A DNA stretch of 38,970 nt from a virus. Below, piece after piece: positions 26,607-37,821 of the stretch; the stretch's first letter is position 1, and every line of letters starts with the position of its first letter. The DNA lies in the IMG/VR virus record IMGVR_UViG_3300031585_000002, positions 1 to 38,970 of that record, one strand, 5' to 3'. Made by a program: the position numbers and the translations under genes. A model generated the notes under the pieces. That model did not search any database and was not told where the DNA came from. It saw nothing but the letters and a program-made list of their open reading frames with translations.

Positions 26607-26778
26607 ATTCACTGTGACGGTGAGGCGTGAGGCTGGAGGGTGGTACTATTGCGCCTACATAGGGTGCAGACTTCTTGTTGAGGGATGGGTCAGGGGCTCT
26701 CGGGAAGAAGCGATGATGCACGGTATACTCGACGGCAAAGAGGCCCTCGATGAGCAACGGAAGGAGTCCGAGGAATGA
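26593..26778 (+). CDS. Small hypothetical protein
   Basis: 61 residues. A beta hairpin (FTVTVRREAGGWYYCAYI) leads into a charged helix; the shape resembles HicB-like or other small alpha/beta regulators but no motif proves it. Overlaps the preceding gene by 14 bases and the next by four. Confidence 0.5.
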   Translation: MVGCEFTVTVRREAGGWYYCAYIGCRLLVEGWVRGSREEAMMHGILDGKEALDEQRKESEE

Positions 26779-27350
26779 ACCGCATCGACAGACTCTTCAC
26801 CATCCTGTGCATCGTTGGCCTGGCCTACGTGGCCATCAGCCTTCTCTCTGGGTGCTCGTACAACCCGAAGCCACTCACATGGGAGGATGGCCTGGAGCGC
26901 TGTGCGTGCTCCGGTCAGATCCAAGTGATTGACCTCGACAGCGAGATCAGTGGCGCGACATCGGCCGCCATGGACCACTGGAACGCCATCCTCGGTCGTG
27001 ACTTATTCATCCGATCCGAGGCAGGCAGCACCGTAGTCGTGTATGTGGCCGACACCGATGATCCTGACACCAAAGCGCTGACAGTATTCCGCCGGACGCG
27101 TGGCCGGATTCGAGGTTGCAACAAGCTGCTCGAGATCCGCGTATCACCCGAAGCGGCGAAGCGAGATCAGCAACTCAACTCCGTGACCATAGCCCATGAG
27201 CTCGGTCATGTCCTAGGTCTCGGGCACAGCCCATACAAGGCGAGCCTGATGTACGTCCACGCATCATCGATGCCGGCTGCGGCATTCAGAATCCCTAGCC
27301 TCGAAGAAGAAGAGACCGAGCTCGTCAAGGCGATGTGGGGGCAGCCATGA
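26775..27350 (+). CDS. Matrixin-type zinc metalloprotease lipoprotein
   Basis: 191 residues. HELGHVLGLGH gives the metzincin signature with zinc ligands H141, H145 and H151 and catalytic E142; M159 in SLMY supplies the Met-turn. The fold size fits a small matrixin. The N-terminus is a hydrophobic segment ending LLSGC, a lipobox with C27, so the enzyme should be exported and lipid-anchored in the envelope. Substrates are unknown. In an early block this may change host envelope proteins, for example receptors, or inactivate competitors. It is flanked by unknown small genes, overlapping both by four bases. Confidence 0.8.
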   Translation: MNRIDRLFTILCIVGLAYVAISLLSGCSYNPKPLTWEDGLERCACSGQIQVIDLDSEISGATSAAMDHWNAILGRDLFIRSEAGSTVVVYVADTDDPDTKALTVFRRTRGRIRGCNKLLEIRVSPEAAKRDQQLNSVTIAHELGHVLGLGHSPYKASLMYVHASSMPAAAFRIPSLEEEETELVKAMWGQP

Positions 27351-27838: not shown

Positions 27839-28210
27839 ATGCAAGACAAGATCACAGTGCTCTACGTTGACGATTACACCATACTGCTCGACTCGGTCCA
27901 GAGGCAACTCGAGTTCGCCGGGGAATACCGCGTCCTCACCACGGACAACCTCGTGGCAGCGTCGTCCATGCTCGCCGACGCGGATGTTGCGCTGCTCGAC
28001 TGGGATCCGATGGGCCCTGCCATGGTCGCTGCATGTTGTGCGGCCAAGGTGCCGTTCGTGATCTACACCGGAGACATCTCTCAGGTCACATGGAGCGTTC
28101 CGGTCCATGAACAATGCGGTGTGCTTCTCAGCAAGCCAGCGACCTCGGGGCAGCTTTCTTCGTGCCTGAGGTCTGCGATGGAGCTCGTCGGCAAAGGAGG
28201 TCAGCCATGA
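27839..28210 (+). CDS. Stand-alone response-regulator receiver domain (CheY-like)
   Basis: 123 residues, the length of a single receiver domain. All hallmark residues are in place: D11-D12 acid pair, phosphorylation site D53 in VALLDWD, T77 in VIYTGD and K99 in LLSKP. No output domain, histidine kinase or HPt protein was seen nearby. The ATG at 27839 was chosen for the GGAG about seven bases upstream. Receiver domains accept phosphate from host histidine kinases, so the protein could titrate or redirect host signalling. It overlaps the first paralogous-family gene by four bases. Confidence 0.8.
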   Translation: MQDKITVLYVDDYTILLDSVQRQLEFAGEYRVLTTDNLVAASSMLADADVALLDWDPMGPAMVAACCAAKVPFVIYTGDISQVTWSVPVHEQCGVLLSKPATSGQLSSCLRSAMELVGKGGQP

Positions 28211-28614
28211 CGCAACGCAAGTTCAAAGCTGGAGACAAGGTGCGCTGGTACGTGGTTGGAGGCGAGCCATTGTGGAATTTTGCGAACATAAGGTCCATGG
28301 GTGATGATGGGCATTGGGTAGAGGGTATCGTCGATCAGTCTCGTGGTGATGGGACCTTCCTGGTTGCTGGTCGAGGCGGTGGAGGATGGTGGTGGCCTCA
28401 ACCTGGCTTGGACAGTTCCCGCTACGGCGAACCCGGTTACCTTGAGTTGGTCGAGGCGGTGAAGGAGCCGAGATACAGGGTCAAGAATACTTTCGATGAT
28501 AGGTCAATTCGCATCTTGGACGATGATTGCGCAGTGCGTTCTGTTTTTCCCGTGTCATGTCGCCCTGAACTCGAGGCACTTTGCGCGAAGCTGAACGAGG
28601 AGAACCAGAAATGA
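28207..28614 (+). CDS. Paralogous family A, copy 1
   Basis: 135 residues. Shares with the genes at 28611 and 29778: FK-x-GDKV-x-WY, PLW-x-F, GxWxEG, WPQP, YGEPGYLEL, and RPELEAxC near the end. The N-terminal part looks like a small beta barrel, the C-terminus is a helix. AAAGGAGGT gives a very strong ribosome site. Function unknown. Confidence 0.65.
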   Translation: MTQRKFKAGDKVRWYVVGGEPLWNFANIRSMGDDGHWVEGIVDQSRGDGTFLVAGRGGGGWWWPQPGLDSSRYGEPGYLELVEAVKEPRYRVKNTFDDRSIRILDDDCAVRSVFPVSCRPELEALCAKLNEENQK

Positions 28615-28997
28615 CCGACCGCAAGTTCAAAGCTGGCGACAAGGTACGTTGGTATACCGTAGACGGAGAGCCCTTGTGGAGCTTCGATGCCATCTACGGG
28701 AAGGGCGACGATGGGCATTGGGAAGAGGGTATCGTCTCAATGCCGAATGACTATGTCTTTCTTGTCGGCGATTGGTGGTGGCCTCAACCTGACGACTCGC
28801 GTTCCCGCTACGGCGAGCCCGGCTATCTCGAGCTGATAGAGGCGATTCCGGAAAAGATGTTCAGGGTCGTGGACACTCTCGACGCCAGATCGATCTACAT
28901 CGAGGACGGTGAGTGTACAGCTCTTTCTGCTTTCCCCAAATTCTATCGCCCAGAACTCGAAGCTCTCTGCAAGAAGCTGAACGAGTGGGAGGTCTGA
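28611..28997 (+). CDS. Paralogous family A, copy 2
   Basis: 128 residues, tandem neighbour and closest relative of copy 1. The DNA itself is similar at the start (AAGTTCAAAGCTGG in both), suggesting a fairly recent tandem duplication. Same motif order as copy 1, without its glycine run. ATGA overlap with copy 1 and TGATG overlap with a 25-residue gene. Confidence 0.65.
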   Translation: MTDRKFKAGDKVRWYTVDGEPLWSFDAIYGKGDDGHWEEGIVSMPNDYVFLVGDWWWPQPDDSRSRYGEPGYLELIEAIPEKMFRVVDTLDARSIYIEDGECTALSAFPKFYRPELEALCKKLNEWEV

Positions 28998-29777: not shown

Positions 29778-30170
29778 ATGAGAGAATTCAAAGTTGGAGA
29801 CAAGGTCAAGTGGTACGAGTTTGGCGACAAGCCGTTGTGGGATTTTGATCGCCCGAACTTCGTATCAGGACCGGGCAAGTGGGTCGAGGGCGTCGTCACC
29901 TCGGCGACAGATGCTGTGTTCGACGCCGATGGCTCGTGGGAGTGGCCGCAACCGGCTCATTGTCGATCCATGTACGGCGAGCCAGGCTACCTCGAGCTGG
30001 TCGAGGCGGTTCCGGAGCCGCAGTTTTCCATTCGGACGGTAGAAGGGCTTGACCGTCTACGGATCTTTTACAAAGACGCATGCAAGCCGGAGACTGGTTT
30101 CCCAGAATACTGCCGCCCTGAGCTCGAGGCCATCTGCAAGAAGATGAACGATGGAGGCGGTGAGAAATGA
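29778..30170 (+). CDS. Paralogous family A, copy 3
   Basis: 130 residues, the most diverged member: FKVGDKVKWYEFGDKPLWDF, KWVEGVV, WPQP, YGEPGYLELVEAV and RPELEAICKKMN are retained. Two unrelated genes and the 25-residue gene separate it from copies 1 and 2. Function unknown. Confidence 0.65.
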   Translation: MREFKVGDKVKWYEFGDKPLWDFDRPNFVSGPGKWVEGVVTSATDAVFDADGSWEWPQPAHCRSMYGEPGYLELVEAVPEPQFSIRTVEGLDRLRIFYKDACKPETGFPEYCRPELEAICKKMNDGGGEK

Positions 30171-30397
30171 CCGAGAAGAAAGTCCCGACCACGGTGTACC
30201 TAACGCGCAAGCAGGCGGACGGGCTTGCTCGGCTGGCGTTCAAGACGAACGTGCCGGCTGCCGTCTACATTCGCCAAGGCGTCGATCATGTGCTGCGCCT
30301 CCACTGCACGCACGAGGTGTTGGTTGACGGCACGGTCACGTCAGGCACGAAACGCTGCGCTGAGTGCGGCGCTGTCATGCGGGAGAAGAGAACATGA
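30167..30397 (+). CDS. Ribbon-helix-helix-like DNA-binding protein with cysteine tail
   Basis: 76 residues. The opening strand (PTTVYLT) and two following helices fit a ribbon-helix-helix fold, which binds operator DNA as a dimer. CAEC near the C-terminus, with C47 and H48-type residues upstream, may bind zinc. Overlaps the exonuclease-RecT gene by four bases, so it may regulate that operon. No operator was identified. Confidence 0.6.
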   Translation: MTEKKVPTTVYLTRKQADGLARLAFKTNVPAAVYIRQGVDHVLRLHCTHEVLVDGTVTSGTKRCAECGAVMREKRT

Positions 30398-31773
30398 GCG
30401 AACCGAAAAGAATCTGCCTCATCGACCTGTCCGGAATCTTCAGGATGCACTGGCATGCGACGGAGCACGAAGAGGTAGGCGAGGCGCACAAGAGGACCAT
30501 CCGTGACGTTGTTCACTTCGGCGCAGGGTACGATCACGTCGCCGTGTGTGTCGACATGCCTCCGTACAAGAGGCGCGAGATCGATCCGCAATACAAGGCG
30601 CATCGTGACAAGGCTCCGACCGTCATGATCGAACAGCTCAAGTCTGCCATCGACTGCATCCGCGATGAGGGGTACCACGTGCTCGGGTCGGATGGGTACG
30701 AGGCGGACGACATCATCGCGACGATGTGCGAGTGGGCCGAAAAGAACGGCTATGAGACCACCGTGTACTCGTCAGACAAGGACTTGCTCCAGCTCGTCAC
30801 GACGCAGACATCGGTGATCTCAGTGGCGACGCGCCAGAAGTTCGGTCAACAGGATGTCTTGGAAAAGTTCGGAGTGCACCCCGAGCTGATACCTGACATG
30901 CTCGCTCTGACCGGCGACAAGAGCGACAACGTTCCGGGTGTGAAGGGATGCGGCACGAAGACGGCGGCGAAGTGGATCAACGAGTACGGTGATCTCGCCG
31001 GCGTCCTGAGCAACGCAGACAAGCTCGGTCGGTTCGCTGAGATCGTCGAGATGTCCAAGGACCTCATCGGCCGTTCATGGAAGCTCGCGCAGCTGGCCAC
31101 CGATGCTCCGATCAGACCAGAGTCCATCCTCGAGCCGATATCGCCACGACACAGAGACGCAGAGACCGAGACGGTGATTCCGGAGGTACTGCCTCCGGCG
31201 ACTGTGTCGCACGTCGACGATCGCCGAGAAACCACGCAGCCGACAAAGAAGAGCACGGCATTGGTTGCGACCGACTACAGCCAGGCGCTCGAGCCACAGT
31301 CTTCGGCGCAAGCGTGGGGTCTTGCTCAGGCGTTGTTCAAGAGCCGCATGTTCGGCGACTTCCCAAATCCGGAAGCGATCCTCGGCGTGATCATGACAGG
31401 GCGCAGCTTCGGTATGGACGCTGTGTCTTCATTGCGTGGTTTCCACAGCATCAAGGGCAGAGCATCTCCGTCGTCTCAACTGCTCATCGGACTCGTGAAG
31501 CGTCACCCGGTGTGCGAATGGTTCCGGTTCGTCGATGGTGACGACAAGTCTGCGACGTGGGAAACGAAACGGCGCGATGAGCCCGAAGCGACAAGCATGA
31601 CCTACACGATCGACGATGCGCGCCTGGCTGGTCTACTAGCCAACGACAACTGGAAGAAGCGTCCGAAGACGATGCTTCGTTGGCGCGCCGGAGTGGAACT
31701 CGCCCGCATCGTCTACAGTGACATCGTCAGTGGTCTCTACACAATCGAAGAAGAGGAAGAACGGAATGGGTAA
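30394..31773 (+). CDS. 5'-3' exonuclease (FEN) fused to RecT-like single-strand annealing protein
   Basis: 459 residues in one open frame. Residues 1-235 are a FEN/Pol I-type 5' nuclease: D11 in LIDLS, YEADD (E103, D105, D106), SSDKD (D128, D130), LTGDKSDN (D175, D178) and the helix-3-turn-helix VKGCGTKTA. Residues 236-300 are a polar linker. Residues about 300-459 match the RecT annealing pattern: [39 protein letters not shown][13 protein letters not shown], and a closing [14 protein letters not shown]. The enzyme could chew one strand and anneal the other, a lambda Red-like system in one chain. Confidence 0.8.
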
Positions 31774-31880: not shown

Positions 31881-31988
31881 ATGAGCAAGATCGAATGGAC
31901 TGACGTGACGTGGAACCCTGTCACTGGATGCACCAAAATCGCAGCCGGCTGCAACGGCTCATTGCGAAAACTTCGGTGGGGCGAGTGA
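31881..31988 (+). pseudogene. Truncated DUF5131 (Gp37/Gp68) family start
   Basis: 35 codons starting [20 protein letters not shown] and then AAGC, the conserved N-terminus of phage DUF5131 proteins, which usually continue with a cysteine-rich body of over 200 residues. Here the reading switches after the second cysteine to unrelated sequence and ends at 31988. The rest is absent, so this is a deletion remnant. An ATG two codons earlier (31875) is an alternative. The downstream gene starts at the TGATG, so the remnant may now act only as a translation lead-in. Confidence 0.7.
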
Positions 31989-34486: not shown

Positions 34487-34541
34487 ACCCAGGCCCCGCG
34501 TGCATTCCGTCTCACCGTGCACACACCCACGGGGCCTGGGT
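34487..34541 (+). terminator. 12-bp GC hairpin before the replication genes
   Basis: ACCCAGGCCCCG (34487-34498) pairs perfectly with CGGGGCCTGGGT (34530-34541); an inner GTGCA/TGCAC pairing lies in the loop. It lies in the 110-base gap upstream of the replication initiator. No U-tract, so termination is uncertain. Confidence 0.55.
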
Positions 34542-34567
34542 GGGGACTCTCATCGTCGAGGTGTCGC

Positions 34568-35431
34568 GTGTGGATTGAGTTGCACGACACCGCCAGAGAC
34601 CACCCGAAGATTCTGAAGCTCGCCAAGGACCTCGGCGTCAGCAGGGTCACGGCGCTCGGGCACATGTGCTCGCTCTGGCTTTGGTGTCTTCGGATGTCCG
34701 CGGACGGGTGCCTCGTGTCCATGGACATCGAGGACATCGAGATCGGAGCTGGTTGGGAAGGCACTTCAGGGGCCTTTGTCGAGGCCGCAAAACGACGCGA
34801 ACTCATCACAGCGAACGAGCACAACGAGCCTGTACTCAATGACTGGGAGCAGTACGCTACACACCTCAAAGCAGCGGAAAGAAAGAAAAAAGACAGAGAC
34901 AGGAAGCGTGCCGAGAGGGAGAAAAAACGCTTGTCCACGGACGTCCAAGGACATCCACGGATGTCCACGAAAATCCGCACTGACCAGACCAGACCAGACC
35001 AGACCAGACCAGACCAGACCGACATTACGTGCGCGGACGTGTCCAAGGACACGATCGGACGGTCCGGCATCCTGGCCGTGTTCGACCACTACCGCACATT
35101 CCACCCGCGGGCGCACAAGAGACCGAACTCCAAGATGACGGAGTGGCGGCGCATCCGGGATCGTATGGCCGAGGGGAGCACTACCGATGATCTCTGCAAG
35201 GCCATCGACGGCATGCACAAGACGCCGCACAACCTCGGCGAGAATGACCGCAACCAGAAATACCTTGGCCTCGAGCTCTGCATGCGCAACGCAAGCCAGG
35301 TGACTCGATTCGTCGAGAACGCCGATCGCTTGTCGCCAGCCGAGCAAGCGAAACGAGAGCGCGAGGAGATGGAACGAAGGCTTCAGGAGGCAATCAGGGC
35401 CGAGGAAGAACAGGACGACGACGATGCTTGA
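34568..35431 (+). CDS. Replisome organiser / DnaD-like replication initiator
   Basis: 287 residues. GTG start with GAGGTG five bases upstream; no ATG fits better. The N-terminal domain (about 1-95, MWIELHDTARDHPKILKLAK onward) looks like the winged-helix domain of phage replisome organisers. A basic linker holds the AGACC repeat. The C-terminal domain (FDHYRTFHPRAHKR, later LCKAIDG and a YLGLELCMRNA stretch) is the conserved DnaD-like tail. Such proteins bind the phage origin and recruit helicase through a loader, which would be the next gene. No polymerase is encoded, so host replication proteins must be used. Confidence 0.7.
   Translation: MWIELHDTARDHPKILKLAKDLGVSRVTALGHMCSLWLWCLRMSADGCLVSMDIEDIEIGAGWEGTSGAFVEAAKRRELITANEHNEPVLNDWEQYATHLKAAERKKKDRDRKRAEREKKRLSTDVQGHPRMSTKIRTDQTRPDQTRPDQTDITCADVSKDTIGRSGILAVFDHYRTFHPRAHKRPNSKMTEWRRIRDRMAEGSTTDDLCKAIDGMHKTPHNLGENDRNQKYLGLELCMRNASQVTRFVENADRLSPAEQAKREREEMERRLQEAIRAEEEQDDDDA
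34982..35021 (+). repeat. Pentanucleotide repeat (AGACC)7 in the initiator gene
   Basis: Seven perfect AGACC units at 34986-35020 with a partial leading unit. Because five is not a multiple of three, gain or loss of one unit would shift the reading frame of the initiator; a change of three units would keep it. In the present frame it encodes DQTRP repeats. Confidence 0.85.
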
Positions 35432-36347: not shown

Positions 36348-36582
36348 CATCATCACCGTGCATGGAGGGCCGGGGAGATTCTCCATCCTCGACCACGGAG
36401 GGTTCTGCACGGTTGCGCTTCTCGGCTACACTGGCGTTGATCATCCTGTCCGTGTGATCGGATGCTACGCTTCGGAGAACGCCAAGTGGAACCTGGAACG
36501 AGCACGAGAGCGAATCAAGAAAGCAATCAAAGAGTACAAGCACCCGAACTCAGATAGACCAACCCAAGGAGGATCGACATGA
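36331..36582 (+). CDS. Hypothetical protein
   Basis: 83 residues: a beta-like front half (GRFSILDHGGFCTVALLGY) and a charged helix (LERARERIKKAIKEY). Overlaps its neighbours by 17 and four bases. Not recognised. Confidence 0.5.
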   Translation: MPKKSDIITVHGGPGRFSILDHGGFCTVALLGYTGVDHPVRVIGCYASENAKWNLERARERIKKAIKEYKHPNSDRPTQGGST

Positions 36583-37106
36583 ATGAAGCAACCATTCGAC
36601 GTGAACTGACCCCTGAAGAGCTACAGAAGCTCGGGCCGCACGCAGGTCACATTCAGAGGCAGATCGATCTGAAGCGAATCGCTCGCAAGGAGGCAATGGA
36701 CTCTGCCAAGCTCGAGATCTCTGATCTCGAAGCCGAGCTTAACCAAGTGCTGAAGGAGCTGCACGACGGGTTTCGCCTCGAGCCGGCTCAAGCAGAGATG
36801 TGGGGAGACAGTCGCATCGACGATGCTCGAGAAGTCGTGCGCAAGGCGAGGGAGAAGTACGCGAGCGAGGCCGAGTCATTCGAGGACGATGTGGATGAGC
36901 AACCAGAGAGCGATCCTGTGGTCGAGAAGATGCCTGCTGATGACCTCGACTCGGAGCTGATCGACGCAGCCATAAAGCTTCGAGACAGCGGGGAACGACT
37001 CACAACGTCAGTGCTTCGTCGACGGCTGCGCATCGGAAAAGCCAAGGCTCAGAGGATTCTCGATGCGCTTCAGCACATAGACTCGATGTCGGATGTCGAG
37101 CCATGA
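36579..37106 (+). CDS. Coiled-coil protein with C-terminal winged-helix-like domain
   Basis: 175 residues. Helical coiled coil over about 25-105, an acidic linker, then LIDAAIKLRDSGERLTTSVL and RRRLRIGKAKAQRILDAL, the pattern of the FtsK gamma-like winged helix that binds DNA. AAGGAGG precedes the ATG. It could be a DNA-binding regulator or replication accessory. Confidence 0.55.
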   Translation: MNEATIRRELTPEELQKLGPHAGHIQRQIDLKRIARKEAMDSAKLEISDLEAELNQVLKELHDGFRLEPAQAEMWGDSRIDDAREVVRKAREKYASEAESFEDDVDEQPESDPVVEKMPADDLDSELIDAAIKLRDSGERLTTSVLRRRLRIGKAKAQRILDALQHIDSMSDVEP

Positions 37107-37396
37107 GTGACATGGAGAGATATGAGATTCAGACATCAGACGGGCCGAAAGAAGCCTATGGTGTCATCGTCGGACCATTCGCTATACGAGATGTGTCGAG
37201 CTTTGACGGACCAAAGTTCCATGTCGACCATCTCTTCACTGGCTATGCGGTCGCCGAGTTCTGTGACGAAGATCAAGCAGCTCTGTTCTGCCTCGAAGCG
37301 AATGAGCTCGCAAACTGGGTGTTCACGGATCCGCATGGATTTTTGCCTCAGGTTGCATTCGGTCATGCCATGAATGCAGCCATGAGCCTGAAATGA
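37103..37396 (+). CDS. Hypothetical protein
   Basis: 97 residues, mixed alpha/beta, with ATGA overlaps on both sides. Aromatic residues occur throughout (GPFAIRD, FHVDHLF). Not recognised; placed within the recombination module just before the resolvase. Confidence 0.55.
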   Translation: MSDMERYEIQTSDGPKEAYGVIVGPFAIRDVSSFDGPKFHVDHLFTGYAVAEFCDEDQAALFCLEANELANWVFTDPHGFLPQVAFGHAMNAAMSLK

Positions 37397-37821
37397 AAGT
37401 CCGCATCCCGGGACAGCCAGTCGGCAAGGGTCGACATCGGTCAGCGCGCATTGGAAAGTTCGTGCGCCACTACACGCCCACCAAGACTGTGTGCTGGGAA
37501 GCGCTTGCCCTCAGCATCATGGAAGACCAGCACACTGGAATGCCGTTCGATGTCCCAGTGCGTATGCACGTTGTCGCTGTCGGGAAACGTCCGAAGCGTC
37601 TCATGCGAAAGAAAGACCCGGAGGGTCGCATGTGGCGTTGCACCAAGCCCGACGGTGATAACGTGCTCAAGGCTGTGTGTGATGCCATGGTCAAAGCAGG
37701 CATCGTCATCGACGACACGCATCTCATCGATCAGCACGTTCTCTCGGTCTATGCCGCCAAGGGTGAGCAACCATGCGTCGAGGTCGAGTGGGATTGCGTG
37801 ACAGGAGGGCCTGAAGAATGA
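37393..37821 (+). CDS. RusA-like Holliday junction resolvase
   Basis: 142 residues. GQPVGKGRHR at the N-terminus and KPDGDN (85-90) with D87 and D89, plus D108 in VIDDTH, match the three catalytic aspartates of E. coli RusA. It cuts branched DNA formed in recombination and replication, and so readies phage DNA for packaging. It could work with the exonuclease-RecT protein. Start and stop sit in overlaps. Confidence 0.85.
   Translation: MKVRIPGQPVGKGRHRSARIGKFVRHYTPTKTVCWEALALSIMEDQHTGMPFDVPVRMHVVAVGKRPKRLMRKKDPEGRMWRCTKPDGDNVLKAVCDAMVKAGIVIDDTHLIDQHVLSVYAAKGEQPCVEVEWDCVTGGPEE

Follow-up and report, generated by a model that had tools for sequence, protein, structure and literature searches.

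The window analysed here is a 38,970-nucleotide stretch of DNA from a virus of bacteria (IMG/VR record IMGVR_UViG_3300031585_000002), in which a nuclease and a DNA-annealing protein are encoded as one continuous chain. The gene is an uninterrupted open frame whose product is a single chain of 459 amino acids (Table 1). A first-pass annotation had read both activities from this one frame, and the frame is indeed open throughout. No promoter or terminator of note was found around the gene.

Table 1. Position of the fusion gene, its parts and neighbouring genes in the window
Feature	Position	Strand	Basis and remarks
Ribbon-helix-helix gene, upstream	30167..30397	+	PF12651 2.9e-8; 4-base overlap with fusion start
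FEN-RecT fusion gene, 459 aa	30394..31773	+	Start codon overlaps upstream stop (ATGA); fusion kept in 25 other records
PIN-like nuclease domain, residues 1-160	30394..30873	+	PF02739 5.1e-30; D11, D54, E103, D105, D106, D128, D130; pLDDT mostly >90
H3TH/SAM-fold part of FEN nuclease, residues 161-241	30874..31116	+	PF01367 1.8e-23; D175, D178
Linker, residues 254-297	31153..31284	+	Predicted disordered, pLDDT <50; without strong internal ribosome site
RecT/Red-beta annealing core, residues 298-457	31285..31764	+	phrog_561 1.4e-20; 7ujl by profile and fold
Codon of R438, aligned with Red-beta R161	31705..31707	+	Alignment
Replication initiation protein gene, same early region	34517..35431	+	phrog_9474 2.1e-28
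RusA Holliday junction resolvase gene, same early region	37393..37821	+	PF05866 2.9e-21; phrog_140 1.9e-26

Other features of the window lie near these genes. A weak FtsK gamma-like DNA-binding domain is found close to the replication genes (36579-37106; Pfam 1e-5, under the curated cut-off). Just after the fusion gene, at 31881-31988, there is a remnant of a DUF5131 gene, of which the first 24 residues match (Pfam 1e-9) and a stop follows after 35 codons; an intact DUF5131 gene (1.8e-72) is present at 4477-5355 of L020, another contig carrying the fusion. The same contig has a QueC gene (2175-2846; 5e-34) overlapping the end of its fusion gene, which hints at 7-deazaguanine DNA modification in that phage. 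Upstream in the window, 28114-28614, 28581-28997 and 29778-30170 encode three similar small proteins with the shared pattern GDKVRWY...GEPGYLELVEA...RPELEALCKK, apparently duplicated copies. Further upstream, the product of 26775-27350 combines a lipoprotein-like start with the zinc-protease motif HELGHVLGLGH, and has no PHROG match.

Both halves of the chain were recognised when searched with profiles. In the nuclease half, the Pfam model 5_3_exonuc_N covers residues 41-160 with 104.8 bits (curated cut-off 34.3) and the H3TH model 5_3_exonuc covers residues 161-241 with 83.3 bits (curated cut-off 40), while a PHROG exonuclease profile matches at 2.6e-41. Residues 1-241 are a full member of the FEN-type 5' nuclease family, and 5' nuclease activity dependent on divalent metal is predicted. 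In the other half, the PHROG profile "RecT-like ssDNA annealing protein" extends over residues 296-457, as expected from the RecT pattern reported in the first-pass annotation. The Pfam RecT model scores 15.3-17.5 bits on the window protein, under its curated cut-off of 24, and this cut-off is passed by two sister fusions, L179 (31.1 bits) and L134 (26.6 bits). When a profile of the RecT half was compared with the PDB, lambda Red-beta (7ujl) was the sole match with E below 0.01 (0.0052 for a profile of two sequences), and a profile built from fifty sequences brought its E-value to 1.2e-5.

The predicted structure agrees with this layout. AlphaFold2 (25 family members) gives two confident domains (pLDDT mostly above 90) joined by a linker predicted to be disordered, and the RecT half modelled alone reaches a pLDDT of 93.6. 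By Foldseek, the FEN half matches the structures of E. coli ExoIX and T5 FEN, and the sole PDB match below 0.001 for the RecT half is the N-terminal domain of Red-beta (7ujl; 5.9e-5, probability 1.00, TM 0.60). By profile and modelled fold, the RecT half is an annealing core of the RecT/Red-beta family, for which ATP-independent annealing and oligomer formation are predicted. The set of FEN acidic motifs had been called complete, and all nine metal-binding acids listed in Table 1 are invariant in all aligned fusions; their equivalence to the T5 FEN set is based on motif and spacing. A decayed nuclease is ruled out by this invariance. R438 is likewise invariant in every fusion with a complete RecT half. 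It occupies the position of Red-beta R161, a DNA-contacting arginine (PMC9512822).

The fusion is a real, conserved design, and a widespread viral family rather than a one-off. It is present in at least 25 other records, namely 24 IMG/VR contigs and one contig of a Betaproteobacteria MAG (L179); the viral count is a lower bound, taken from the best 80 loci of each search, and some of these contigs are near-copies of one another. In the independent contig L002, the fusion chain is 49% identical to that of the window from end to end. The first-pass annotation had named two findings that would refute its reading, the lack of a significant match for either half and a sequencing error joining two genes. 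The profile matches dispose of the first, and with L002 and the further records at hand, sequencing error, gene join and chance are ruled out. Searches of viral contigs with patterns from the window returned only L002, and profiles of diverged members were needed for the others: L020 was found with a RecT profile, and a FEN profile built from the window, L002 and L020 then gave many more. The linker varies across the family from 54 to 196 residues, as measured between profile boundaries. A single frame break was met among the relatives, in L119 (2767-4612), a relative of L114: its FEN half and its RecT half (the one also found in L114) occupy separate frames that overlap, owing to a frameshift or an assembly error.

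Outside these contigs the fusion was rarely met. When bacterial and archaeal genomes were scanned twice with the RecT half, a single fusion came up (L179) and no host could be assigned firmly. Three fusion queries found no record with 80% coverage among 50,697 phages, and one such query found none among 72,556 plasmids. In UniProt, A0A6J5MUB0 (462 amino acids, uncultured Caudovirales phage) is matched by Foldseek over 472 columns (E 2.4e-41), and it apparently has the same architecture. It is labelled "PIN_53EXO domain containing protein", that is, as an exonuclease only, and we found no description of its RecT half. A literature search that covered mostly open-access papers returned no paper describing a FEN-RecT fusion. 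The fusion is a variant of the exonuclease-annealase recombinases rather than a new kind, undescribed in the papers found.

The RecT halves of the fusions form a single clade (support 98/97; 100% of bootstrap trees). The FEN halves also fall in one clade (96/94), which they share with four rows labelled as FEN alone: L128, L130, L138 and L147. L128 is a truncated fusion, and L147 has a C-terminal extension without any match. In L138 (528-1580 and 2992-3903) the same FEN lineage is a gene of its own; a full-length RecT gene lies apart from it, about 1.4 kb upstream, and this may be the unfused arrangement. In L130 (3013-4584), a FEN of this lineage continues in frame into a Sak4-like annealing protein (phrog_107 2.8e-35; phrog_124 3.7e-35), with an in-frame ATG and AAGGA upstream of it at the junction. 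This is again a FEN joined to an annealing protein, although the Sak4 half has a RecA-like fold; a search with L130 gave no second FEN-Sak4 example. Distances between FEN halves correlate with distances between RecT halves (r 0.64), a value reached in none of 5000 permutations. These trees and distances are most simply read as a single fusion that was inherited as one unit from then on.

Linkers of other members are enriched in possible internal starts. Of 45 in-frame ATGs in the linkers, 8 are preceded by a ribosome-site-like sequence, and of 209 within the domains, 6 are (p = 7e-4); the members concerned include L020, L102, L104, L107, L112, L117 and L126. Some fusions might also make free RecT from such an ATG, but linker composition could cause the enrichment. 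A start-codon scan of the window and L002 gave no good internal start in the linker, and the production of free RecT from such a site in the window is rejected.

One difference between the fusions and their free relatives is found at the C-terminus. In the window, the RecT core ends two residues before the stop and no C-terminal tail follows. After the core there are 0-12 amino acids in 20 fusions and 20-335 in 41 free RecTs, ranges that do not overlap. In Red-beta, the C-terminal region binds both lambda exonuclease and SSB (PMC8303780; PMC9512822), and truncation leaves Red-beta able to anneal but unable to support recombination (PMC5052646). Phages have pairs of a RecE-like or YqaJ/DUF3799 gene with a RecT gene, and free RecT relatives often adjoin an exonuclease gene (PMC8093625). 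Nucleases of the YqaJ, PDDEXK_1 and DUF3799 families, three that are usual as RecT partners, occur in none of 25 fusion records versus 11 of 23 free-RecT records (p = 6e-5), a comparison that covers three Pfam families and is weakened by the fragmentary state of many contigs. Since the fusions form one clade, both contrasts, in tail and in exonucleases, are inflated. Tail loss and the missing exonuclease families are each consistent with a fused FEN in place of a docked exonuclease. The window, possibly a partial genome, yielded no PolA, YqaJ, PDDEXK_1, DUF3799 or SSB; a phage SSB turned up in only 3 of 21 fusion records, the window not among them. As PolA was absent from all 49 records, a FEN belonging to a phage PolA module is ruled out.

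From the fusion itself, the co-inheritance and the genomic context, we infer that the nuclease and annealing halves would act together in recombination. We think it probable that the fusion is a one-chain exonuclease-annealase serving single-strand-annealing recombination of the phage. In its favour, two complete domains with invariant key residues are inherited jointly, the docking tail is missing, the three partner exonuclease families were not found, and a RusA gene and a replication initiator gene share the early region. The FEN half would start from a DNA end, nick or gap and remove the 5' strand, leaving a 3' single strand exposed. The RecT half, tethered to it, would bind this strand as it emerges and pair it with a complementary strand. 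The covalent linker would do the work of the C-terminal tail, which in Red-beta serves for docking on lambda exonuclease. The activities, their coupling and their order are all predictions of this proposal. Among the points against it, by analogy with Red-beta, the loss of the tail would also have removed the region corresponding to the SSB-binding part.

Lambda exonuclease is a processive ring, but FEN enzymes are as a rule structure-specific, with low processivity. They may therefore perform poorly in long resection from a blunt end, which is the main argument against such resection here. In a different order of events, RecT would pair the strands or anneal fork fragments, FEN would trim the 5' flaps for ligase after annealing, and another nuclease, perhaps from the host, would carry out resection. 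Flap cleavage is the classic activity of the FEN fold, and the FEN half most resembles ExoIX/T5 FEN and the PolI nuclease domains. Poxviruses have a FEN-like nuclease with a supporting role in double-strand break repair by an annealing-based pathway (PMC9415595). Trimming after annealing would also account for the recruitment of a FEN over an enzyme of the lambda-exonuclease type. However, none of the three usual phage resection nucleases was found in the fusion records, and the lost tail corresponds to the exonuclease-docking region of Red-beta, which favours a replaced resecting partner. We regard this order as the less likely one, though a serious competitor, and one chain could do both resection and flap trimming.

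It is improbable, in our opinion, that the two domains work independently, for instance FEN in RNA primer removal and RecT in recombination, with the fusion merely equalising their amounts. The long, variable and predicted-disordered linker would suit such an arrangement, as it imposes no fixed geometry; so would the linker ATGs that could give free RecT in several fusions other than that of the window, and the separate FEN and RecT genes of L138. But inheritance as one chain over deep divergence and the uniform loss of the tail suggest a functional link, and the window and L002 are without a good internal start. An artefact, whether a gene join created in sequencing or assembly or a gene in decay, has a negligible probability given that 25 other records carry the same fusion with all catalytic residues kept.

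How lambda exonuclease, a trimer, and Red-beta, a ring or helix, cooperate at 1:1 has been stated as an open question (PMC7496540). That cooperation becomes directly testable in a natural fusion, where the ratio is fixed at 1:1, each kind of active site is present once and the docking tail is lacking. The fusion suggests that a FEN nuclease can replace the lambda-exonuclease-type enzyme usual in phages. It is also a candidate for single-gene recombineering, a field in which exonuclease-annealase pairs have been inefficient outside their own host (PMC8093625). More broadly, uncultivated phages may harbour widespread one-component recombinases, in which one FEN lineage is joined to annealing proteins of different folds (mostly RecT, Sak4 in L130), so that the coupling is part of the chain itself and a docking tail is no longer needed; for this wider proposal we see the balance as even.

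Like the fusion, lambda Red consists of a 5' nuclease and an annealing protein of the RecT/Red-beta fold, and the 1:1 ratio that has been reported for the lambda complex (PMC9512822, PMC7496540) is inherent in the fusion. Lambda Red, however, is made of two chains with a lambda exonuclease/YqaJ-type nuclease and a docking tail, while here there is one chain, a FEN and no tail. The fusion departs from lambda Red and RecET in two respects: its nuclease is a FEN and not of the PD-D/EXK type, and it has no exonuclease-docking C-terminal domain. Its RecT half is related to the annealing proteins of the RecE/RecT and YqaJ/DUF3799-RecT pairs. In those pairs the nuclease is a separate protein, whereas in the fusion it is attached and belongs to another superfamily, with no separate partner among the three families tested. 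The first-pass annotation had considered a FEN partner unusual, and beside RecT it is, but it is not unparalleled in annealing-based recombination and repair. The T7 nuclease gp6, which works with gp2.5, belongs to the FEN superfamily. In poxviruses, the FEN-like nuclease G5 acts in repair (PMC9415595). In both cases nuclease and annealing protein are separate, and in the fusion they form one chain.
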